This document shows positions 19,820-31,599 of a DNA stretch of 64,000 nt, one piece after another (position 1 is the first letter of the stretch; the number at the start of each line of letters is the position of its first letter). The translations under genes were made by a program, and so were the position numbers. Origin of the DNA: Propioniciclava flava (GTDB lineage Bacteria > Actinomycetota > Actinomycetes > Propionibacteriales > Propionibacteriaceae); NCBI RefSeq assembly GCF_004126535.1, contig NZ_PPCV01000011.1, positions 1 to 64,000 of the forward strand. The letters are read 5' to 3'. Under the pieces are notes generated by a model. It worked only from the letters and a program-made list of their open reading frames with translations, had not been told where the DNA came from and made no database searches.

Positions 19820-21580
19820 TCAGTGCAGTTGGTCGTGGCGGGAGACGTCACGGTCGAACCAGGACACGGGCGGCGGGGTCGCCGGAGCGCGCATTTCTGA
19901 CAGATCGTCGCCGCGCTGTTCACGTCGGAGGGCTTCCACCACCCAGTCCACCACCTCGGCGGTGGTGTGCGAGCGTCGAGTGACCTCCAGGATCGCTTCG
20001 CGGAGCCGGTAGACGGGACTGGCCAGACGGAAGGGCCGGGAGCGCGTCGCGACGGCGATCACGCTGGCGGCCAGTAGAGCCTCCACCGCGAACAGCCGCT
20101 CCACATGGTCCAGCGTGGCTTCTGTGAGCCGGATGGAGGAGTACGCCAAGGACGCATGATCCTCGATGCCGTCGCCCACCGTGGTCCCGCTCAACGAGAT
20201 GGGCGTGGCCGCATGCTTGATCTGGGCGACCAGCGCCGACGCCGTCTGCGCCAGGATGAGGGGCGTCACGTAGCCGGTGGCCGACGTGACTCGCTGCACC
20301 TGCTCGGCCAACGGGACGCCCTGGCGCAGGTGCCGCACCAAGATCGCGACCCGCCGCTCCGCGAGGAGAGCAACGTGGGCCAACCCGATCCTGAGGGCAT
20401 CGAAAGACACAGCGATATTGGTGATCGAGAAGTTGCCGTTGGAAATGAACTCCCCGGTGGTGGCGTCGAGGAAGGGATTATCGGGCGCGCAGTTCAATTC
20501 GACCTCGAGGACGCGTTCGAGGTCATCCAGCTGATCCAGTAACGCTCCATGCACCTGCGGGACAGTGCGCACCGAGATGGGATCCTGAAGCGACGCGGTG
20601 GGCCGGACGCCTTGGGCCAGGTCGCCGTCGGACAAAACCTCCCGGATCCGCGCCCCGCTCACCTGCTGGCCCGGGTGCGGACGGGCCGCGAGGACGACCT
20701 CTTTGAACGGGCTGAGGTTGGCCCCCAAGGCTTCCAAGGTGAGGGCGGCGACCAAGTCGGCCCGGGCAGCGACGAGCGTCGAGCGGCGGTGTGCCAGGGA
20801 CGCACTCGCGACCGACAAGGCATTCGAACCCACCAGGGCGAGGGCGTCCTTGGCCTCCAAAACGAGCGGACGCAAACCGGCCGCCGCGAGTGCGGTGGCT
20901 CCGGGGACGACCTCGTCTGAACCGGGCAGCCAAGCCTCCCCGGCCCCAATGAGGACTTGGCCGATGGCTGCGAGCTGCGACAGATCCGCCGCCCCCACCG
21001 AACCCTGATCAGGGATCACCGGCACCACGTCGCGCAGCAACAGTTCCAGGAGCCCCTCGAACAGGGCCGGTGACGCCCCCGAGGCGCCTGCCGCCAGCGT
21101 GTTGAGTCGCGTCACCACCGCAGCCCTGCTCTCGATGCGTGAGAGCGGCTTCCCGATCGCGGCCGCGTGGCTGAGGATCACGTAGCGCTGAAAGTCACCC
21201 ATGAGCTCGGCGGGGATCTCATGGTCGCGGAGCGGTCCTAGCCCCCGGTTGACTCCGTACGCCGGGACGCCGGAGCGCAGCGTGGCATCCACGACGGCCC
21301 GGGCGGAGCTGAGCCGCGCGAGAATCTTCCTGCGGTCGACCCGCACCGACGCGTGACCGATGGCCACGTCGGCGACATCGGTGGTCGTGAGGGGCGCCCC
21401 GATCTCGACGACGCGGGGGTGGGCGTTCATGGCGCCACGCGTCGTGGGGCAGCGGAGTGCAGGCCCGGCAGGGGAGCCCTGGACTCCCGCGCTGAGCGAG
21501 GCCGAGGCGTCGGTCAGCGTCGGGGTCTCTGTACCGTCGTGGAACCCCGTTCTCACCAGGTCGGGAAGCGTGTCGCTCAT
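19820..21580 (-). CDS. HAL/PAL-family protein lacking the MIO motif
   Basis: This protein has the fold signature of histidine/phenylalanine ammonia-lyases: AYGVNRGLGPL (Tyr109), ILSHAAAIGKPLS, ALALVGSNALS, NPFLDATTGEFISNGNFS and GDGIEDHASLAYSS. However, the segment that normally reads SVGASGDLAPL, whose Ala-Ser-Gly cyclises to the MIO electrophile, is SVGAADLSQL, one residue shorter and without Ser-Gly (residues 194-201). The catalytic Tyr of QDPYSLR is Ile335 (QDPISVR). A standard lyase reaction is therefore unlikely. The ATG at 21580 overlaps the DUF917 stop by 4 bp. A shorter form could start at the ATG near 21430, where family homology begins. Function unknown. Confidence 0.8.
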   Translation of the reverse strand: MSDTLPDLVRTGFHDGTETPTLTDASASLSAGVQGSPAGPALRCPTTRGAMNAHPRVVEIGAPLTTTDVADVAIGHASVRVDRRKILARLSSARAVVDATLRSGVPAYGVNRGLGPLRDHEIPAELMGDFQRYVILSHAAAIGKPLSRIESRAAVVTRLNTLAAGASGASPALFEGLLELLLRDVVPVIPDQGSVGAADLSQLAAIGQVLIGAGEAWLPGSDEVVPGATALAAAGLRPLVLEAKDALALVGSNALSVASASLAHRRSTLVAARADLVAALTLEALGANLSPFKEVVLAARPHPGQQVSGARIREVLSDGDLAQGVRPTASLQDPISVRTVPQVHGALLDQLDDLERVLEVELNCAPDNPFLDATTGEFISNGNFSITNIAVSFDALRIGLAHVALLAERRVAILVRHLRQGVPLAEQVQRVTSATGYVTPLILAQTASALVAQIKHAATPISLSGTTVGDGIEDHASLAYSSIRLTEATLDHVERLFAVEALLAASVIAVATRSRPFRLASPVYRLREAILEVTRRSHTTAEVVDWVVEALRREQRGDDLSEMRAPATPPPVSWFDRDVSRHDQLH

Positions 21581-22692
21581 GACGCCGGGGTGTAGGCCGC
21601 AGTGCCAGGCCGCAGATCCGCGTCCAGGTAGGAGAGGAAGTCGATCCCCATGATCGTTTCGCATTCGGCCAGCCCCGCCCGATCGATGCTGGAACTGGAC
21701 ACCGGCAGGCGTCCGGCACGAGACACCAGCAAGGCGACGTCCTGGCCGCCCTTGCCGGCATCCTTGACCGCCAAGCCCTCACCGGTGGACTTGTCGAGGA
21801 TGACGATGGTGTCGGGGTAGGTGGCGACCCGGCCGGAGGCATGCTCGACGGCCATGTATTCGTTGAGGTAGGGCACCGTGTGCTCCCCAATGCGGAATGT
21901 TCCCCGATCCCAGCCGCCCAGGGTGCGCGTCCGCTTCTCGATGCGCAGCGGCCCCTCGTCGATCAGGTCGGCCTGAAGGCGTGCCTGGGCGGCCGCCACC
22001 AGGGGGTCGGGACCGTCGTGGCGGGCGGCAGCCAGGTCGGACCCCAGGTCGAGGGCCAGCGAGATGGAACCGTGGGCGCCGTTGGCTTTGACCCAGTCGA
22101 GTTCGACGGGGTTGCGTGCGGACGCGATGAAGCCACCCACCCGCACCGAAATGTCGCGCAGCACATCGTCGACCGTGTTGAGGTTGCCGCGGTTCACCGA
22201 CACGAAGTGACCGTGCAGGGCCCGATTGCCGCCGCTGACCACCTGGATCGACTCATAGCCGGGGCGTTCCCCCAAGCCGAGGCCACCCAGCTTGCCGGTC
22301 GGGTGGGCGCGCACATCCCCGGCAGTATCCAGGACGGTGACGCCGAGCATCGCGGACTGGATCCAACCGTTCAGCGTCGTGGAGTACCCGTTTTGGGCCG
22401 TCATGACGGCGCCGATCGGCACGTCGGCGGCACGGATGAGTTCCTGCAGGGCGTGAACATAGTCGGCCGGACGGATCTCCCAGTCCCTGGCCGCGGGGGC
22501 GCCGATGGCGGTCACGGTCGCCACCCAGGTGTCTGCGGGCACCTCCTCGAGGGAGGCGAGCACCGGCCGCTCCAGGCTCGTGGCTAGCCCGCCCATGAGT
22601 TCCCCGTGGTGCTTCCAACCGCCCCCACCGCAGGCGAGGACGCCGCCGCCCAGGACGGCGTTGCTGGCATCGAGGGGGGTCAGTTCTCTCAT
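21577..22692 (-). CDS. DUF917 family protein
   Basis: This 371-residue protein has the glycine-rich N-terminal pattern of DUF917 (AVLGGGVLACGGGGWKHHGEL). Members are usually found with hydantoinase-like or amino-acid catabolic genes and may be metal-dependent, but no reaction is established. It lies between hutU (105 bp upstream) and the HAL-like gene (4-bp overlap), which implies a shared pathway. The ATG at 22692 is followed by a clear family N-terminus (MRELTPLDASNA). Confidence 0.8.
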   Translation of the reverse strand: MRELTPLDASNAVLGGGVLACGGGGWKHHGELMGGLATSLERPVLASLEEVPADTWVATVTAIGAPAARDWEIRPADYVHALQELIRAADVPIGAVMTAQNGYSTTLNGWIQSAMLGVTVLDTAGDVRAHPTGKLGGLGLGERPGYESIQVVSGGNRALHGHFVSVNRGNLNTVDDVLRDISVRVGGFIASARNPVELDWVKANGAHGSISLALDLGSDLAAARHDGPDPLVAAAQARLQADLIDEGPLRIEKRTRTLGGWDRGTFRIGEHTVPYLNEYMAVEHASGRVATYPDTIVILDKSTGEGLAVKDAGKGGQDVALLVSRAGRLPVSSSSIDRAGLAECETIMGIDFLSYLDADLRPGTAAYTPAS

Positions 22693-22797: not shown

Positions 22798-24531
22798 CTA
22801 GCGAGGACGAGACCCGCCACCGAGCCAGATGAGGGGCGCATTCCCGGTTTCCCCGCCCGAGGTGACGCTCGCCGAGGCCTCCTCGTAGCCTGCGCTCGCA
22901 TGCCGCAGGACGCCCAGCCCGGTGTCGGCGTCCAGGCTTCGACGCAGCCGCACGGCCGTTTCGGGGCGCCCGTCGGCGACGATGGAAACTCCCGCCGACT
23001 GCATCCACCCCGCATAGCCGCCACCACCGGAGTGGACGGCAACCAGGTCGGCGCCGGTCGCGGCGAGCGCCATGGCGTCCAGGAGGGGGAAATCGGTGAC
23101 GCCGTCGGAACCGTCGCGCATCCCTTCGGTACCGATCCGCGGATGCGTCATGGAGGCGGAATCGAGGTGGTCGCGGCTGAAGAGGACGGGAGCCTCCAAC
23201 GTGTGGTCGGCGACCAACGCGTTCACGGCGAGCGCGAACGCTGACCGCTCGCCGTGGCCGAGCCAGCACGACCGCGCCGGGAGCCCCTGGGGCGGGATCT
23301 GGGTGCGGGCCACGTCGATCCACCGGGCCACCTCGCGACGCCGCTGCCCGAACATCTCGATGGCGAGGTCGTCCAGCACCCGCTGGTCCTGGCTCGACCC
23401 GGACAGGCACACCCAGCGGAACGGTCCGATTCCCCGGGCGAACAGCGGACGCAGGTAGGCCTCCATGAAGCCGGGGATCCGGTTCACCTGCGCCGACGCG
23501 GCCTCACTGAGGTGTTCGATCGCTTGGACGCGCAGGTTGTTGCCGTTCTCAAACACCACTGATCCGGCGTCGGCGAACGCGAGCATCGCCTGCACCTGGG
23601 TTGCCATGGCTGCCCTGGCGTCGCGCTCCAGACGCTGGGGATCCTCCGCCTGCGCGGCCCGCCACTGATCCAGCGTGTACCCGGCAGGTACGTATCCGTA
23701 GCGGGCGTCGTGGGCGGCCGTCTGGTCGGTGACGATGTCGGGCACCACGCCTCGGCTCACCAGCGCGGGGTAGACCTCTGCCGCGTTGCCGATCAGCCCG
23801 ACGGCGACGACGCTCGCGCTGTCACCGGCGTGCGCGAGAGCGTCCAGGGCCTCGTCCAGGTCGGTGGTGATCAGGTCGAGCGCACCGGCGTCCGCCAGGC
23901 GATGAACTTTCGCGGGATCCACCTCGACCGTGAGGGAACTCAGCCCCAGCATGGCGGCGCTGATGGGTTGCGAGGAGCCCATGCCGCCCATCCCGGAGGT
24001 GAGCACCCAGCGTCCGGCGAGCGCGTCGGATTCTCGGCCCGCAGCAGCGCCGAAATGATGCCGGGCGATCGTCCCGAACAGTTCGTAGGTGCCCTGCAGG
24101 ACGCCTTGGCGGCCGATGTATTGCCAGGCTCCCGCAGTGAGCCCGCCCCACATCGTCTGACCTGCGTCGGCGCGCTCATAGAACCGGTCAGAGGTGGCCC
24201 AACGGCCCACCGTGTTGTTGACCGCCGACAGCACCAAGGGGGCGGATGGGCCGGTTCCCAGGAGGCCGACGGCGGCACCCGAGGCGAGCACGAGGGTCTG
24301 TTCCTCATCGAGGGCCATCAGGGCCGCCGCGATGGCGCGCGCCTCATCCCAGTTGCGGGCGGCCTTACCCAAGGAGGCGTACACGATGAGCTCGTCGGGG
24401 TTCTCGCCGACCTCCAGCACGTTTTCGAACATCCGCAGCAGGCCTTCCGCCCGCCACGTCTTCGCGCGCAGGTGAGGGCCCCGCTGGGCGCGGTAGGACG
24501 ATGTGGGGCCTGCAAGGATGCTGCTGGTCAT
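22798..24531 (-). CDS. hutU: Urocanate hydratase
   Basis: The 577-residue product matches urocanase, which adds water to urocanate to give imidazolonepropionate using tightly bound NAD. Recognisable family features are WRAEGLLRMFENVLEVGENP near residue 27, the NAD-binding region with TSGMGGMGSSQPISAAMLG near residue 170, RIPGFMEAYLRPLFARGIGPFRW and HSGGGGYAGWMQSAGVS near the C-terminus. It heads a minus-strand operon with DUF917 and the MIO-less HAL-like protein. No hutI, hutG or canonical hutH is in the window, so the histidine route is incomplete here. The 271 bp upstream contain no recognisable gene. Confidence 0.93.
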   Translation of the reverse strand: MTSSILAGPTSSYRAQRGPHLRAKTWRAEGLLRMFENVLEVGENPDELIVYASLGKAARNWDEARAIAAALMALDEEQTLVLASGAAVGLLGTGPSAPLVLSAVNNTVGRWATSDRFYERADAGQTMWGGLTAGAWQYIGRQGVLQGTYELFGTIARHHFGAAAGRESDALAGRWVLTSGMGGMGSSQPISAAMLGLSSLTVEVDPAKVHRLADAGALDLITTDLDEALDALAHAGDSASVVAVGLIGNAAEVYPALVSRGVVPDIVTDQTAAHDARYGYVPAGYTLDQWRAAQAEDPQRLERDARAAMATQVQAMLAFADAGSVVFENGNNLRVQAIEHLSEAASAQVNRIPGFMEAYLRPLFARGIGPFRWVCLSGSSQDQRVLDDLAIEMFGQRRREVARWIDVARTQIPPQGLPARSCWLGHGERSAFALAVNALVADHTLEAPVLFSRDHLDSASMTHPRIGTEGMRDGSDGVTDFPLLDAMALAATGADLVAVHSGGGGYAGWMQSAGVSIVADGRPETAVRLRRSLDADTGLGVLRHASAGYEEASASVTSGGETGNAPLIWLGGGSRPR

Positions 24532-24802: not shown

Positions 24803-25669
24803 TCACAGGTAGGGGGCGACCAGCAGGTCGTAGCGCTCCTTCATCGTGGTCAGCGTTTGCTCCCCGGGAGTGTCCCAGATCGCCTCGTTGAAGATCTCGA
24901 CTTCGATGTCGCCGGTGTAGCCCGCCTCGGTAACCCAATGGGTGATCGTGGGGAAGTCGATGTAGCCGTCCCCGACATGACCGCGCGACAGCAAGGCGTC
25001 GGCGGCCAGGGGGAGCGTCCAATCGCAGATCTGATAGGACGCAATGCGTCCCTCGCGCCCGGCTCGGGCGATCATGTCGGCCAACTGCGGATCCCACCAC
25101 ACGTGGTAGGTGTCCACCACGACGCCCACCTCCTGGGGTGCGAACTCTGCCGCCACATCGAGGCACTGCCCCAGGGTAGAGAGCACCGCCCGATCGGCGG
25201 CGAAGATCGGGTGTAGGGGCTCCAGGACGAGCCGGACGCCGTGCTCGCGGGCGTAGCCCACCAGTTCACCGATCCGCTCGCTGACGCGGCGCCGCGCCGC
25301 CACGATGTCCTTGTCGCCGTCGGGGATCGCCGCCGACGAAGGTCCCGAGCAGGCGGGCAGGCCGCCCACCACCATGATCAACTCGTGCGTGCCCAGGGCC
25401 TGAGCCTCGCGGATGGCCAAGCGATTGTCCTCCAGCGCCGCGGCGATGCCCTCCGGGTCTGCGGCCGACAAGAACCCGCCCCGGCACAGCGAACTGACCC
25501 GCAGCCCTGCGTCGCGGACGATCCTGGCGGCGTTCTCCAGGCCCGCCTCGGCGACGCGATCGCGCCACAGGCCCACCGCTTCCAGACCCGCGTGCTGGGC
25601 GCCTGCGACGGCCTGCTCCAGCGTCCAGTGTTTCGTCGTCGCCGTGTTGAGCGAGAGCCGGTAGGTCAT
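24803..25669 (-). CDS. Sugar phosphate isomerase/epimerase family protein (AP-endonuclease-2 TIM barrel)
   Basis: This 288-residue TIM-barrel protein of the xylose-isomerase-like family is typically a metal-dependent isomerase, epimerase or dehydratase on keto-sugars or inositols. Probable metal ligands are in LVLEPLHP, VVVDTYHVWWDP and IEVEIFNE. The ATG at 25669 overlaps the preceding dehydrogenase by 4 bp (ATGA). The pair resembles the dehydrogenase-isomerase couples of inositol and 3-keto-glycoside pathways. The substrate is not known. Confidence 0.85.
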   Translation of the reverse strand: MTYRLSLNTATTKHWTLEQAVAGAQHAGLEAVGLWRDRVAEAGLENAARIVRDAGLRVSSLCRGGFLSAADPEGIAAALEDNRLAIREAQALGTHELIMVVGGLPACSGPSSAAIPDGDKDIVAARRRVSERIGELVGYAREHGVRLVLEPLHPIFAADRAVLSTLGQCLDVAAEFAPQEVGVVVDTYHVWWDPQLADMIARAGREGRIASYQICDWTLPLAADALLSRGHVGDGYIDFPTITHWVTEAGYTGDIEVEIFNEAIWDTPGEQTLTTMKERYDLLVAPYL

Positions 25670-26826
25670 GCCTGCAGCGCTTCCATCTCGATCCGGCGGC
25701 CCTCGGCAGAGGACTTCAAGCCATTCTCGGCCAACTGGACGCCGCGGGCGGCCGAGAGCAGGTCGTAGCGGTGCGGGCGTCCGGTGACGACATCGCTGAG
25801 GAACTCTTCCCATTGGGCCCGGAACCCGTTGGTCAGGTCGGCGTTGGCGGGGACATCGAGCCATTGCTCGCGGAAGCGCTCGGTGGTGGGGATATCGGGG
25901 TTCCACACGGGCTTGGGTGTGTGGGCGCGCTGCTGGGCGACGCAGGAGAACAGCCCTGCGACGGCCGAGCCGTGGGTCCCGTCGATCTGGAACTCGACCA
26001 GTTCGTCACGGTGGACGCGCACGGCCCAGGAACTGTTGATCTGCGCGATGACGGGATCGCCTTGTGGGGTGCGGAGTTCGAAGATGCCGTAGGCGGCGTC
26101 GTCGGCGGTCGCCTCGTAGGGCTGACCCTGCTCGTCCCAGCGGGTCGGAATGTGGGTGACGGCCTTCGCTGTGACGGCCTCGACCTTGCCGATGATGCCT
26201 TCCATCACGTAGTTCCAGTGGCAGAACATGTCGATCGTCATACCGCCACCGTCTTGCTTGCGGTAGTTCCAACTCGGCCGCTGCGCGGGCTGGTGGTCCC
26301 CTTCGAAGACCCAGTACCCGAACTCGCCACGCAGGGACAGGATGCGTCCAAAGAAGCCTTCCTCGACGAGTCGGCGCAGTTTGACCAGGCCGGGGAGATA
26401 GAGCTTGTCGTGGACGACACCGGCCGTCACCCCGGCGGCTGCGCGCACCCGTTCGAGTTCGACCGCTTCCTCGAGTGTTTCAGCGGTGGGCTTCTCAGTG
26501 AAGACGTGCTTGCCTGCCTGCATGGCGGCGGTGAGTGCTGCCTTGCGCTGGGAGGTCACCTGGGCGTCGAAGTAGATGTCGACCTGCGGGTCCGCGAGCA
26601 CTGCGGCAAGGTCGGTCTCCCAGCGTGCGATGCCGTGCTGCTTCGCGAGCGCGGCCAGGGTCTCGGGGCGGCGTCCGACGAGAATCGGCTCGACCTCGAC
26701 GCGCGTGCCGTCGGCCAGCGTCAGGCCTTCCTCGCGCAACGGGAGGATGGATCGCAGGAGGTGCTGGCGGTAGCCCATGCGTCCGGTGACGCCGTTCATG
26801 GCAATGGTCAGCTTCGTGGTTCCCAT
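25666..26826 (-). CDS. Gfo/Idh/MocA family oxidoreductase
   Basis: This 386-residue NAD(P)-dependent dehydrogenase has an unusual Rossmann start (AMNGVTGRMGYRQH) rather than the common GxGxxG, the hallmark EKP in VFTEKPTAETLEE near residue 118, and the C-terminal alpha/beta domain. Such enzymes oxidise a sugar or cyclitol hydroxyl. It is first in a two-gene operon with the TIM-barrel protein, preceded by a LacI-type operator at 26845-26858 and by the LacI-family gene. I chose the ATG at 26826 because it gives the family N-terminus. Confidence 0.9.
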   Translation of the reverse strand: MGTTKLTIAMNGVTGRMGYRQHLLRSILPLREEGLTLADGTRVEVEPILVGRRPETLAALAKQHGIARWETDLAAVLADPQVDIYFDAQVTSQRKAALTAAMQAGKHVFTEKPTAETLEEAVELERVRAAAGVTAGVVHDKLYLPGLVKLRRLVEEGFFGRILSLRGEFGYWVFEGDHQPAQRPSWNYRKQDGGGMTIDMFCHWNYVMEGIIGKVEAVTAKAVTHIPTRWDEQGQPYEATADDAAYGIFELRTPQGDPVIAQINSSWAVRVHRDELVEFQIDGTHGSAVAGLFSCVAQQRAHTPKPVWNPDIPTTERFREQWLDVPANADLTNGFRAQWEEFLSDVVTGRPHRYDLLSAARGVQLAENGLKSSAEGRRIEMEALQA

Positions 26827-26844
26827 GTCGGACCTCTTCTCTGA

Positions 26845-26858
26845 GGAATGCGCTTTCC
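26845..26858. promoter_or_regulatory. LacI-type operator upstream of the 25.7-26.8 kb dehydrogenase
   Basis: GGAATGCGCTTTCC is a near-perfect 14-bp palindrome centred on GCGC, 19 bp upstream of the dehydrogenase start. It is one of five related sites in the window (28043, 35288, 44784, 47739). The adjacent LacI-family gene at 26897-27940 is the obvious candidate to bind it. Confidence 0.65.
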
Positions 26859-26896
26859 CAGAGGCTAGCATGAGCGCCGCCCGTGGGGGAGGGTGT

Positions 26897-27940
26897 TTAG
26901 GCCCCCGTGCGAGGCGGGGTGGAGTCGCGCAGCACGGGGATCGCCTCGACGGTTACCGAACCGTTGCCGTCGCCGGGGCCATGCAGGGCCAGGTCGAGCC
27001 CCAGCCTGGCGAGTTGCCTGGTGGGAACGTGGACCGTGGACAGGCTGGGGCGAACGTCGATAAGGGTCGACACGTCACCAAAGCCCGTCAGTCCAACATC
27101 GGTGGGGATCTGGACCCCTGATCGGCTCGCCTCGTGGAGGGCGCCCAGGGCCATCACGTCGCTGGTGGCGACGACGACGTCGTAGTCGAGGCCCGCCTCG
27201 ATGGCCAGTCGCATGCCGATGGTCCCGCCCGTGCGGGTGAAGTCCGACCCGATGCGATGTGTGGGGGGTATCGGGTGGCCGAGTTCGGCCATGCGGGCCG
27301 CGAACCCGGCGGCACGAGCGGCCGCGGTCGAGTGGCGTTCAGGGCCCGCCAAGAGCAGCGGGCGCCGATAGCCGCGCCCCACCAGGGCCTCGGCCAACGC
27401 GCTCGCGCCCGCCTCGTTGTCGATGTGTACGCAGTCGACGCCGGGGAAGTCCATACCGAGGGCCACCACTCTGCCGCCGCGCCTGACGTATTGCTCGATC
27501 GAGGTGTGGAGCCCGCGGTGCAGGTCGGGGTCTTTCCAGCGGGCGCCGACCAAGATGATGGCACGCACGCGCATGGAGTCCAGTGCGGTGACCATGTCGC
27601 CCAGGGCCTCGATCTTGTTTCCGGTTGTGGCCAGCGTCAAGAAGAGCTTGTGTTCGGTTGCCGCAGTCGCAATGCCGTCGGCAATCTCGGCGAAATAGGG
27701 GTCGGTGAGGTCGTGGACGACGACTCCGATGGTGCGGGTCGCGCCCCGGGCCATCGCCTGGGCGTTGGCGTTGGGGGCGTAGCCAAGAGACTGGGCCGAA
27801 TCGATGACCCGGCGGCGCAGTTCCTCTCCGACGGTGCGGGTCTCCGAGCCGTTGATCGCCCGTGAGGCGGTCGCCAACGACACTCCGGCGTGTCGGGCGA
27901 CATCGCTCAGTGTGGGGGCGCTGCGTGTGGTGCGGGCCAT
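26897..27940 (-). CDS. LacI-family transcriptional regulator of the sugar-acid region
   Basis: This 347-residue repressor has its helix-turn-helix at residues 9-32 (TLSDVARHAGVSLATASRAING), a hinge (LGYAPNANAQAMARGATRTIGVV) and a ligand-binding domain. It lies between two operator copies (26845 and 28043), one in front of the dehydrogenase operon and one in front of the divergent ABC permeases. Distant matching sites upstream of the solute-binding protein, eda and another dehydrogenase suggest it controls a dispersed regulon. The inducer is unknown. Confidence 0.9.
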   Translation of the reverse strand: MARTTRSAPTLSDVARHAGVSLATASRAINGSETRTVGEELRRRVIDSAQSLGYAPNANAQAMARGATRTIGVVVHDLTDPYFAEIADGIATAATEHKLFLTLATTGNKIEALGDMVTALDSMRVRAIILVGARWKDPDLHRGLHTSIEQYVRRGGRVVALGMDFPGVDCVHIDNEAGASALAEALVGRGYRRPLLLAGPERHSTAAARAAGFAARMAELGHPIPPTHRIGSDFTRTGGTIGMRLAIEAGLDYDVVVATSDVMALGALHEASRSGVQIPTDVGLTGFGDVSTLIDVRPSLSTVHVPTRQLARLGLDLALHGPGDGNGSVTVEAIPVLRDSTPPRTGA

Positions 27941-28391
27941 GGTCCTCCCTTCGGCGGGCCGACGCCTGCACCCTAACGACCCGGTGAGTGTGCGGCAATC
28001 GAGGATCTCCTTGACGGGGCCCGGGGGTACCCCTACATTCTCGGTAAGCGCTTGCCGTCACTGGAGTCGGCTTGCCACGAGAGCAAGGGGCCCTCCGTGT
28101 CGATCCTCGCGAGCCCCACGGTCGGCCATGAGATCCGTCTCATGGAACCGTGCGCAACACCTCTAGCGAAACTCTCGCGCGGTGGTAGCTTCTGCGTGAT
28201 TCAGATGCGCGCAGCGCAAGATCTGGTTCTTTGGACGTGAGTCCGCCCCTGATGCGGCAATCGATCTCGATGGTGAGATCGCGGGCCAACTCACATGCAC
28301 TGAAGGCCGCAGGTGGGCCCATGATTCACGTCCACCCGAGGTCCCCACTCTGCCCGTACCCAACGAGCCGCACATCGCAGGAGGAGAAGCC
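27941..28391. other. Intergenic region between lacI-type gene and ABC permeases
   Basis: This 451-bp stretch separates divergent genes. It holds the LacI-type operator at 28043-28056 and, at its right end, a strong GGAGGAG ribosome-binding site (28380-28386) for the first permease. A solute-binding-protein gene would normally stand here at the head of a CUT1 sugar-importer operon. I found no protein-like remnant of one in any frame. Confidence 0.6.
28043..28056. promoter_or_regulatory. LacI-type operator upstream of ABC permeases
   Basis: GGTAAGCGCTTGCC is a palindrome with a single mismatched pair around the core AAGCGCTT. It lies 102 bp upstream of the LacI-type gene start and 335 bp upstream of the permease operon, so it may regulate both directions. 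The site matches the one upstream of the solute-binding protein (GGTAAGCGCTATCC on the minus strand at 35288-35301). Confidence 0.65.
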
Positions 28392-29315
28392 ATGAGTGCT
28401 CTCAGCGAACTCGGCAAGCTCCGAGGCCGAGGTAAGGAAGAAACGCCCGACAATGTCGCCGGGTATTTGTTCTTGTCGCCTTGGCTGATCGGCCTTGTCC
28501 TCATCACTATCGGCCCGATGCTTGCCTCCTTGTACCTTTCCTTCACCGACTACAGCCTCCTGTCCCCGCCGGAGTGGATCGGCGCGCGCAACTACGAGCG
28601 AATGCTCGCCGATCCTCGGCTACTGAATTCGCTGCGGGTGACGTTTACCTACGTCTTCGTCTCGACACCGCTCCAACTCGCCTTGGCGCTGGCCATTGCG
28701 GTACTGCTGAACCAGGGCATGCGGGGGCTCCCGTTCTATCGCTCGGTGTTCTACCTGCCGTCGCTGATGGGCTCCTCGGTGGCCATCGCGATCTTGTGGC
28801 GCCAGATCTTCGGCACCTCCGGCCTGGTCAACCAGGTCTTGATGGGACTGGGCTTCACTGATCTTCCGGGCTGGATCTCCAATCCCGACACCGCGCTCGG
28901 CACCATCATCTTGTTGCACATCTGGACCTTCGGCTCCCCGATGATCATCTTCCTTGCGGGCCTGCGTCAGATCCCCACCATGTACTACGAGGCAGCCGCG
29001 GTGGACGGCGCCTCCAAGTGGACGCAATTTTGGCGGATCACGATGCCGCTGCTCAGCCCCATCATCTTCTTCAACCTTGTGCTCCAGATCATCGGCGCCT
29101 TCCAGTCGTTCACGCAGGCGTTCATCGTCTCCGGTGGCACGGGCGGCCCCTCCGATTCCACGATGTTCTACACGCTGTACCTGTACCAGAAGGGCTTCGC
29201 CAACTTCGATATGGGGTACGCGTCCGCCATGGCGTGGCTGCTGCTGATCATCATCGGCGTCTTGACCGCTGTGAACTTCTACGTCTCTAAGTATTGGGTG
29301 TTCTACGATGACTGA
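28392..29315 (+). CDS. Carbohydrate ABC transporter permease (MalF/UgpA type)
   Basis: This 307-residue inner-membrane permease has about six hydrophobic segments, beginning with GYLFLSPWLIGLVLITIGPMLASLY. The cytoplasmic EAA loop is YYEAAAVDGASKWTQFWRITMPLL, which contacts the ATPase. The length and motif fit the CUT1 family. It overlaps the second permease by 8 bp. There is no ATPase gene nearby; actinobacteria commonly share one MsiK-type ATPase among CUT1 importers. Confidence 0.92.
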   Translation: MSALSELGKLRGRGKEETPDNVAGYLFLSPWLIGLVLITIGPMLASLYLSFTDYSLLSPPEWIGARNYERMLADPRLLNSLRVTFTYVFVSTPLQLALALAIAVLLNQGMRGLPFYRSVFYLPSLMGSSVAIAILWRQIFGTSGLVNQVLMGLGFTDLPGWISNPDTALGTIILLHIWTFGSPMIIFLAGLRQIPTMYYEAAAVDGASKWTQFWRITMPLLSPIIFFNLVLQIIGAFQSFTQAFIVSGGTGGPSDSTMFYTLYLYQKGFANFDMGYASAMAWLLLIIIGVLTAVNFYVSKYWVFYDD

Positions 29316-30243
29316 TCGACACGCCGACAGCGCGCAGGCTGTCCTCGACAACGACGTCCACCTCGATGAGGGGGGCGCAGCTGATGTCCATGCGGTGCGG
29401 CGACGCGGACGCGTCGGTTCGAGTATCAAGTCGGTCATCAAGCACGTGCTGATGATCGCGGCCGCGCTGCTCATGATCTACCCCCTCCTGTGGATGCTGG
29501 TCAGTTCCTTCCGCCCCACCGACGAGATCTTCCGCGAGTCCGGGCTGGTCCTCACCGGGCTGCACACCGAGAACTACACCGAAGGCTGGAACGCCCTGCA
29601 GTACCCGTTCGGCCACTACCTCCTCAACTCGGTGATCCTCGTTTTGGGGTGCATCCTGGGGAATGTCATCTCCTGCTCGCTGGCCGCCTATGCGTTCGCC
29701 CGCCTGAAGTTCAAGTTCAAGAACATCTTCTTCGGCATCATGTTGCTGACGATCATGCTGCCCATGCACGTCATCATCGTTCCGCAATACATCATGTTCT
29801 CCCAGTTCGGCTGGCTGAACACGTTCCTTCCCTTGATTTTGCCAAAGCTCCTCGCCACGGACGCCTTCTTCGTCTTCTTGATGGTGCAGTTCATTCGAGG
29901 ATTGCCGCGGGAGCTGGATGAGGCGGCCCGTATCGACGGTTGTGGCCATTGGCGGATCTTCTTCAACGTCATCATGCCGCTCATGACCCCTGCTATTGCC
30001 ACGACGGTGATCTTCACCTTCATCTGGACCTGGAACGACTTCTTCAGCTCGCTGATCTATCTGACCAAGCCGGAGATGTTCACCGTCCCGATCGCCTTGA
30101 AGTCCTTCCTGGACTCCACGGGCGGGTCGAACTGGGGTGCCATGTTCGCGATGAGCGTGGTGTCACTCATCCCCGTCTTCCTGGTCTTCCTCTTCGGGCA
30201 GCGGTTCCTCATCCGCGGCATCGCCACCACCGGGATCAAGTAG
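29308..30243 (+). CDS. Carbohydrate ABC transporter permease (MalG/UgpE type)
   Basis: This 311-residue second permease subunit has an unusually acidic N-terminal extension (about 30 residues: DNDVHLDEGGAADVHAVRR) before the first membrane helix. The EAA loop is ELDEAARIDGCGHWRIFFNVIMPLM near residue 210, and the C-terminus FGQRFLIRGIATTGIK is typical of the MalG branch. It pairs with the preceding gene to form the channel. A Gfo/Idh/MocA gene follows after 33 bp in the same direction. Confidence 0.92.
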   Translation: MTDRHADSAQAVLDNDVHLDEGGAADVHAVRRRGRVGSSIKSVIKHVLMIAAALLMIYPLLWMLVSSFRPTDEIFRESGLVLTGLHTENYTEGWNALQYPFGHYLLNSVILVLGCILGNVISCSLAAYAFARLKFKFKNIFFGIMLLTIMLPMHVIIVPQYIMFSQFGWLNTFLPLILPKLLATDAFFVFLMVQFIRGLPRELDEAARIDGCGHWRIFFNVIMPLMTPAIATTVIFTFIWTWNDFFSSLIYLTKPEMFTVPIALKSFLDSTGGSNWGAMFAMSVVSLIPVFLVFLFGQRFLIRGIATTGIK

Positions 30244-30276
30244 CCGGTCGTGCCAGTCAAGGAGAATCGAGTTTCC

Positions 30277-31599
30277 ATGCAGCGCTATGGCCTCATCGGT
30301 GCCGGGCACCGTGCTCAGATGTACACCGACGCGATCGGGGGTGCTCACCGCGACATCGCCACGCTCGTGGCGATCGCCGACAGCAACCCCGGCCGGGCGG
30401 CCTACCACCGAGACCGGATGGTAACCGAGTACGGCTACGCGCCGGACACCATCGCCCTCTACGGTCCTGCCGACCTTGAGGCGATGATCGCCGACCAGCG
30501 GCTGGGTCGGGTCGTCATCACCAGCCCGGATTACACCCACGCCGAGATGATCGTCCGCGCGCTGCGGGCCGGTGTTGACGTCGTGGTTGAAAAGCCCCTC
30601 ACCATCAATGCCCCCTCCGCGCAGGCCATCGTGGCTGCGGTGGAGGAGACGGGGCATCAGGTGGTGGTGACGTTCAACTACCGCTACAGCCCACGCAACT
30701 CGGCGCTGAAGGAACTCCTCGCTTCAGGAGTCATCGGGACGCCGCTCTCCATGACCTTCGAATGGGTGCTCGACACGGCCCACGGCGCGGACTACTTCCG
30801 CCGCTGGCACCGAGACAAGGCCAACTCAGGGGGGCTGCTGATTCACAAGGCAAGCCACCACTTCGACCTGATCAACTGGTGGTTGGCCGACGTTCCCCGA
30901 CGAGTGTTCGCCAGCGGAGGGGTGAAGTTCTATGGCGCCGAGGCTGCGGCGTCGCGCGGGCTGCCGCCGCGTCCGCCCCGAGGCACCCATGAAGGGGAGC
31001 ATGGCCCCTTCGAACTGGACCTGCGCGATGATCCCCGTCTGGCGGCGCTCTACCTGGACAACGAGCACTACGACGGCTACCTGCGCGACCAAGACGTGTT
31101 CGCCCCAGGCGTCACGACAGAGGACAACCTCGCGGTGATCGTCGAGTATCAAGGCGGGCCGACCTTGTCGTACGCGTTGAACGCCCACAGCCCGTGGGAG
31201 GGGTACCGAGTGGCCGTCAACGGGACGCTGGGCCGGGCTGAACTCGAGGTCATCGAGCGTGCTCGGATCAGTGTGGACGCCGCCGGCAAGGTCATCGTCG
31301 ACCCCTCGGCCATGGCCGACGCAGTGGGGGCCCGCGACAAGGGGGAGCGGCTCACCGTCCAGCGGCACTTCGAGGCCGCCTACGAGGTGCCCATTCCCGA
31401 GGGGACCGGCGGCCACGGCGGCGGGGATGCGCTCCTGTTGTCGGATGTCTTCAACGGTCCAGGCCCGGATCCGCTGGGTCGCCCCTCGGATTATGTCGAT
31501 GGCCTGCGGGCGATCGCGGTTGGCATCTGCGGCAACGAGTCCCTCGCAACCGGTAAGGCCGTGACCCCTGACGAACTGGGGATCCCCTTGACGCGGTGA
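30277..31599 (+). CDS. Gfo/Idh/MocA family oxidoreductase
   Basis: This 440-residue dehydrogenase has the N-terminal Rossmann motif YGLIGAGHRAQMY, the EKP motif VVVEKPLTINAP near residue 105, and the C-terminal domain with GGLLIHKASHHFDLINWW carrying the catalytic Lys/His set. It is longer than average because of an insertion around residues 220-270. I chose the ATG at 30277 (AAGGAG 12 bases upstream) over an upstream GTG at 30250 that has no ribosome-binding site. It probably acts on the sugar or sugar acid imported by the preceding permeases. Confidence 0.9.
   Translation: MQRYGLIGAGHRAQMYTDAIGGAHRDIATLVAIADSNPGRAAYHRDRMVTEYGYAPDTIALYGPADLEAMIADQRLGRVVITSPDYTHAEMIVRALRAGVDVVVEKPLTINAPSAQAIVAAVEETGHQVVVTFNYRYSPRNSALKELLASGVIGTPLSMTFEWVLDTAHGADYFRRWHRDKANSGGLLIHKASHHFDLINWWLADVPRRVFASGGVKFYGAEAAASRGLPPRPPRGTHEGEHGPFELDLRDDPRLAALYLDNEHYDGYLRDQDVFAPGVTTEDNLAVIVEYQGGPTLSYALNAHSPWEGYRVAVNGTLGRAELEVIERARISVDAAGKVIVDPSAMADAVGARDKGERLTVQRHFEAAYEVPIPEGTGGHGGGDALLLSDVFNGPGPDPLGRPSDYVDGLRAIAVGICGNESLATGKAVTPDELGIPLTR

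Follow-up and report, generated by a model that had tools for sequence, protein, structure and literature searches.

The window analysed here, a 64,000-nucleotide stretch of Propioniciclava flava DNA, carries three minus-strand genes in the order hydratase, DUF917 protein and lyase (Table 1). The lyase reading frame (19820-21664, minus strand) is intact and open from 21664, with the likely ATG start overlapping the stop of the DUF917 (desulfurase) gene and an alternative start at 21430. In profile searches, the protein scores 390.5 bits against PF00221, and 326.3 and 331.5 bits against two hutH models (cut-offs 539.15 and 524), neither of which it passes. A promoter and terminator scan gave no matches. 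Upstream of the cluster, positions 24803-31599 encode a xylose-isomerase-like protein, a Gfo/Idh/MocA oxidoreductase, a LacI regulator, two ABC permeases and another oxidoreductase, in what looks like a separate sugar locus.

Table 1. Genes and active-site features of the lyase cluster, with positions in the window.
Feature	Position	Strand	Remarks
MIO-less lyase, ergothionase clade	19820..21580	minus	586 aa, start ATG at 21580
V195-G196-A197-A198-D199, one-residue-short site	20984..20998	minus	VGASGD in MIO lyases
Ile335 in LQDPISVR	20576..20578	minus	Tyr in MIO lyases
Gln445	20246..20248	minus	aligns with Lys of IQK in ergothionase 6s7j
Glu473 of GIEDH	20162..20164	minus	invariant in 17/17 rows (ergothionase-proper and window clade); MIO rows keep it
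DUF917 protein, thiohydantoin-desulfurase type	21577..22692	minus	NF058529 319.9 bits, cut-off 440
Urocanase-family protein, thiourocanate-hydratase type	22798..24531	minus	NF058530 710.6 bits, cut-off 930

The codons of the short site lie within DQGSVGAADLSQL and encode VGAAD, one residue shorter on alignment than the corresponding stretch of P. putida HAL 1gkj (SVGASGDLAPL), and the A-S-G (or C/T-S-G) triad for MIO is absent. Translation and alignment thereby confirm the original prediction of a site lacking both the triad and one residue, and the reading LQDPISVR bears out its claim that the QDPYSLR tyrosine is replaced by isoleucine. The Asn of GSNALS, listed there as a retained HAL pocket residue, instead aligns with a Thr of HAL and other MIO lyases and is common to ergothionase, so that this detail is corrected. 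Tyr108, Asp199, Arg338, Glu473 and Asp474 are invariant in the 17 rows of ergothionase-proper and the window clade.

The predicted structure of the window lyase (pLDDT 84.8, 11 sequences) matches 6s7j, the crystallised ergothionase of Treponema denticola, at rank 11 of a fold search (TMq 0.83, TMt 0.89), with P. putida HAL (TMq 0.83) ranked above it. The model confirms the fold; HAL, aminomutases and 6s7j match it about equally, so that it does not discriminate between them.

The short site among relatives and known lyases

Scanning of genome_contigs with two peptide patterns built from the window clade itself returned 13 loci, every one under an actinobacterial name and five being near-copies from Pseudoclavibacter. 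In 12 of these relatives the site can be read, and in all 12 it is one residue short, with the form GSVG-[A/S][A/G]-D, which argues that the window site is not a sequencing slip and, together with the uninterrupted frame, upholds the earlier view of an intact gene for a conserved protein. Among 20 fetched loci of the same family, CSGD occurs in 16 (L010-L025, 32-37% identical to the window lyase), the short form in three (the window's own, L007 and L009), and the site is uncovered in one. Of the 43 aligned rows, 26 lack one residue at the site, four of Agrobacterium type lack three, and 13 have the triad; the QDPYSLR-type tyrosine is present in 13/13 triad rows and in 0/30 of the remainder, and the two losses coincide in every row.

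HutH and the window lyase share the fold and family PF00221; HutH carries an ASG/CSG-derived MIO and the QDPYSLR tyrosine, whereas the window lyase has neither. The same one-residue-short site is found in 6s7j, reading SSIGEGD within SSIGEGDITTLSHIG, and there too the tyrosine is gone (LQDPLSFR). Together, 6s7j / 6s7q and the window lyase share the HAL fold, Asn where HAL has Thr, the IED motif and a clade supported at 100/99.9, with 25% identity between 6s7j and the window lyase in the structural match. PMC13405746 describes ergothionase as an enzyme without MIO whose products are trimethylamine and thiourocanic acid.

The window branch nevertheless differs from the T. denticola enzyme in the NKD and SANFE stretches, and the Lys of IQK in 6s7j is replaced by Gln or Asn throughout the branch; within ergothionase-proper, this position is Lys in six of seven rows and Ala in the seventh. 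Invariant residues at 15 positions set the seven ergothionase-proper rows apart from the MIO rows; the window clade has three of these in common and differs at 12. An essential lysine is reported for T. denticola ergothionase, and it may be the Lys of IQK. Since the window branch has Gln or Asn where most classical ergothionases have the IQK lysine, its proton transfer or its contacts with the substrate are probably different.

Placement of the MIO-less lyases

The main tree comprises 46 rows, with the site columns removed and an aminomutase-like outgroup included; it extends an earlier set of 40 rows by six MIO rows, the outgroup being one of them. A tyrosine-aminomutase family search (0/296 genomes above the cut-off, 122 with some match) supplied MIO-bearing rows only. 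All 23 one-residue-short rows placed on the tree, out of the 26 in the 43-row alignment and with 6s7j included, form one clade (support 100/99.9), within which the window branch is an actinobacterial clade of 10 rows (100/100) and ergothionase-proper a clade of seven (99/96). The window lyase thus shares ancestry with the characterised ergothionase apart from MIO lyases, while sitting outside the 6s7j-type branch in a separate branch of its own. The window branch, ergothionase-proper and the remaining short branches meet at an open fork, with no branching order among them. Long branches were flagged for L032 and the outgroup L073, and the 6s7j row is odd in composition.

All 27 MIO-less rows fall on one side of a branch with support 98/90. 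In the 40-row tree, which had no outgroup, the group with the three-residue deletion (Agrobacterium type) joined the MIO lyases at 100/99, so the placement of that group depends on sampling. Subject to the same dependence, the tree fits one loss of the triad with radiation afterwards, and separate origins of MIO loss, though possible, are not required.

Gene neighbourhood, transport and the rest of the genome

Both neighbours of the window lyase best match the thiourocanate hydratase (TUH) and thiohydantoin desulfurase (THD) models, yet below the pathway cut-offs. The DUF917 protein scores 213.6 bits with the S-methyl model vs 319.9 with the desulfurase model, and the hydratase scores 611.1 bits with its S-methyl model (cut-off 880) and 575.5 with the general hutU model, whose cut-off of 375 it passes, its thiourocanate hydratase score standing 135 bits above that for hutU. 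The original prediction had envisaged a distinct AAD clade beside hutU and DUF917; the clade is there, and the genes beside it score best as thiourocanate hydratase and thiohydantoin desulfurase, which act next in the ergothionase pathway. L026, L034 and L037 show the same pattern as the window, with the two pathway models outscoring the S-methyl and hutU models. At positions separating thione (nine loci) from S-methyl (two loci) types, the clade's hydratase has the thione residue at 36, the S-methyl residue at 16 and another residue at 20, and its desulfurase at 36, 11 and 30, respectively; the counts for the hydratase against five hutU-type loci were 42, 18 and 22. An S-methyl type for the window cluster was considered and is less favoured, hydratase and desulfurase being nearer the thione type. 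A survey of the phylum with the desulfurase model found some match in 18 of 396 genomes, none of them over the cut-off, with scores above 250 bits only in the window's genome (319.5) and G403 (254.9).

TUH and THD are both present in the stretches of 11/13 genome_contigs relatives, with L040 and L043 cut by contig ends, while a hydantoinase-like gene occurs in 6/13 and a carbamoylase in 2/13. In L034, an Arsenicicoccus relative, the carbamoylase passes the ErtE model (531 bits, cut-off 520), and ErtD is the best model for the hydantoinase, below its cut-off (368.7 of 650); in L037 both ErtE (506.4, cut-off 520) and ErtD (381.9, cut-off 600) fall below. In Pseudoclavibacter L038, L039, L041 and L046 the transporter adjoins the lyase, with the hydratase and desulfurase genes some 7 kb further downstream.

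Comparable clusters occur on other replicons. Burkholderia and Paracoccus clusters (L031, L029) hold TUH, THD, hydantoinase, carbamoylase and a MIO-less lyase (GEAD) in one stretch; TUH and THD of L031 exceed the NCBIfam cut-offs (1050 and 608.3 bits), unlike the window's counterparts, and both lyases belong to a different branch from the window lyase. The Agrobacterium pAt cluster (L033) combines a MIO-less lyase having a three-residue deletion at the site (GSVGY--L) with TUH, DUF917, hydantoinase, carbamoylase and a glycine-betaine-type transporter, its TUH and DUF917 proteins passing the S-methyl models; transporter genes of that type also lie near the L065 lyase. TUH and THD occur together in 12 plasmid loci, and the fetched stretches of eight of these hold a lyase-like gene, seven MIO-less and one MIO-bearing. 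The latter, at L058:15694-17226 on a Lichenihabitans plasmid, is an ASGD hutH clustered with hydratase, DUF917, hydantoinase and carbamoylase, so the hydratase/desulfurase cluster does not always accompany a MIO-less lyase. Ochrobactrum, Shinella and Rhizobium plasmids (L051, L052, L054) carry yet another branch of MIO-less lyases, marked by Cys at the site (GCAD), and the genes alongside encode hydantoinase, carbamoylase, DUF917 and hydratase proteins.

An OpuC-type quaternary-amine ABC transporter adjoins the lyase in 11/13 related loci. In the window no transporter is linked to the lyase cluster, and a complete OpuC-type transporter is encoded elsewhere in the same genome, on contig C23. 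The solute-binding proteins of the relatives fall in the quaternary-amine family, as does EgtUC, and all eight aligned carry Phe at the position that, by indirect alignment through AfProX, presumably corresponds to Gly244 of EgtUC; PMC9732360 gives a roughly 100-fold weakening of ergothioneine binding for the Gly244 to Phe exchange in EgtUC.

The window lyase is the single PF00221 gene of its genome. EgtD gave no match there, with a control that matched one of 14 genomes, below the cut-off. The carbamoylase (ErtE-type) query also gave none, a result that shows little without a positive control in this genome; the query does match L029-L031, L033, L034 and L037. The hydantoinase query brought up no dedicated ErtD; of its two matches, the better is a dihydroorotase that exceeds the cut-off, and the second is short and weak. 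Contig C22 of the genome (L028:5241-13064) holds three further DUF917 genes, a Hydantoinase_A-type gene, a cytosine/purine-type permease and a protein with a PucR-type HTH; speculatively, the Hydantoinase_A-type gene might serve a later pathway step.

Proposed reaction and alternative readings

The window lyase diverges from the other members of the ergothionase clade to which it belongs, and lies in a probable ergothioneine-type catabolic cluster. The gene likely encodes a MIO-independent, 1,2-eliminating lyase of this clade, whose substrate is most likely ergothioneine or a closely related thiohistidine betaine, from which it would release trimethylamine. The missing triad, the site architecture in common with ergothionase, the clade and the neighbourhood are read directly from the sequence; the substrate, the acid-base chemistry and the reaction order are inferred. 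In primary-amine lyases, MIO is what makes NH3 a leaving group; trimethylammonium is already one, and a betaine-specific lyase can therefore do without MIO, with which the association of quaternary-amine-type transporters agrees. A base would take the beta proton, after which trimethylamine would leave, yielding thiourocanate, which the hydratase and desulfurase encoded next to the lyase would then convert to hydantoin-5-propionate and sulfide.

Counted in favour of the ergothionase reading are the short site and the clade in common with 6s7j, the scores and position counts of the neighbours, TUH, THD and the transporter in the relatives' stretches, ErtE in L034, the structural match to 6s7j, and the absence from the genome of another PF00221 gene and of an EgtD match. 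Counted against it are the open fork at the base of the window branch, a fold that fits HAL equally well, neighbours below the pathway cut-offs, a hydratase that passes the general hutU cut-off, the sharing of only 3/15 specific positions, Phe in the relatives' binding proteins, the lack of a linked transporter, no ErtE-type match in the genome (with no positive control) and the MIO-bearing L058 lyase.

A possible but less likely reading is that the actinobacterial branch is a separate class of MIO-less enzyme with another acid-base set-up (Gln or Asn for Lys), perhaps another thiohistidine betaine as substrate, and a shortened pathway in the window's organism, which would end at hydantoin-5-propionate or continue through an unlinked hydantoinase. 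As a sub-case of the preferred ergothionase reading, with overlapping odds, the mechanism could be the same but act on a betaine other than ergothioneine itself, for instance its S-methyl form, its sulfonate or some other substituted thiohistidine betaine. The exchange of the 6s7j lysine, the 12/15 ergothionase-specific positions not shared, neighbours below thione and S-methyl cut-offs alike, and binding proteins that seem to lack the EgtUC Gly speak for such a substrate; hydratase and desulfurase nearer the thione than the S-methyl type by scores and grouping, with two S-methyl loci compared, speak against it, and on balance we regard it as unlikely.

A catalytically dead HAL paralogue, retained as a binding or regulatory subunit, would explain the joint absence of triad and tyrosine, but the crystallised ergothionase has both losses too, the five residues from Tyr108 to Asp474 named above are invariant across 17 rows, and the genome offers no other PF00221 gene as a partner, which makes this explanation highly improbable. 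Least credible is a histidine ammonia-lyase without MIO or with an unusual one, working beside hutU in histidine use: membership of PF00221, the 32-37% identity to the CSGD loci and a urocanase-family neighbour above the hutU cut-off would fit, but AAD cannot form the usual triad, the hutH models reach 326-332 bits of 524-539, the neighbour scores 135 bits better as thiourocanate hydratase, and DUF917 is not known to be part of histidine degradation.

Under the preferred reading as an ergothionase-clade lyase, part of the original proposal of a conserved protein with changed chemistry holds, the protein being conserved and unable to form MIO; the chemistry itself, trimethylamine elimination, is already known from ergothionase. 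Since a MIO-free ergothionase was already known, the window lyase represents a divergent branch of a known kind and not new chemistry. No paper on an actinobacterial ergothionase branch was found among the matches listed in searches of openly available literature. Ergothionases are called restricted to few genera in PMC13405746, which warns that this leaves divergent homologues out of account.

Ergothionases are easily missed, being named histidine or aromatic ammonia-lyases. In public plasmid records, the MIO-less lyases at L065:3025-4530, L033:17197-18690 and L069:7977-9470 are labelled histidine ammonia-lyase (hutH). In the 43 aligned rows the triad and the QDPYSLR tyrosine are always lost together, which offers a quick test for re-annotation. 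The actinobacterial branch that comes with the window has gene clusters of probable ergothioneine type; those of their hydratases and desulfurases that were scored lie below the NCBIfam pathway cut-offs.
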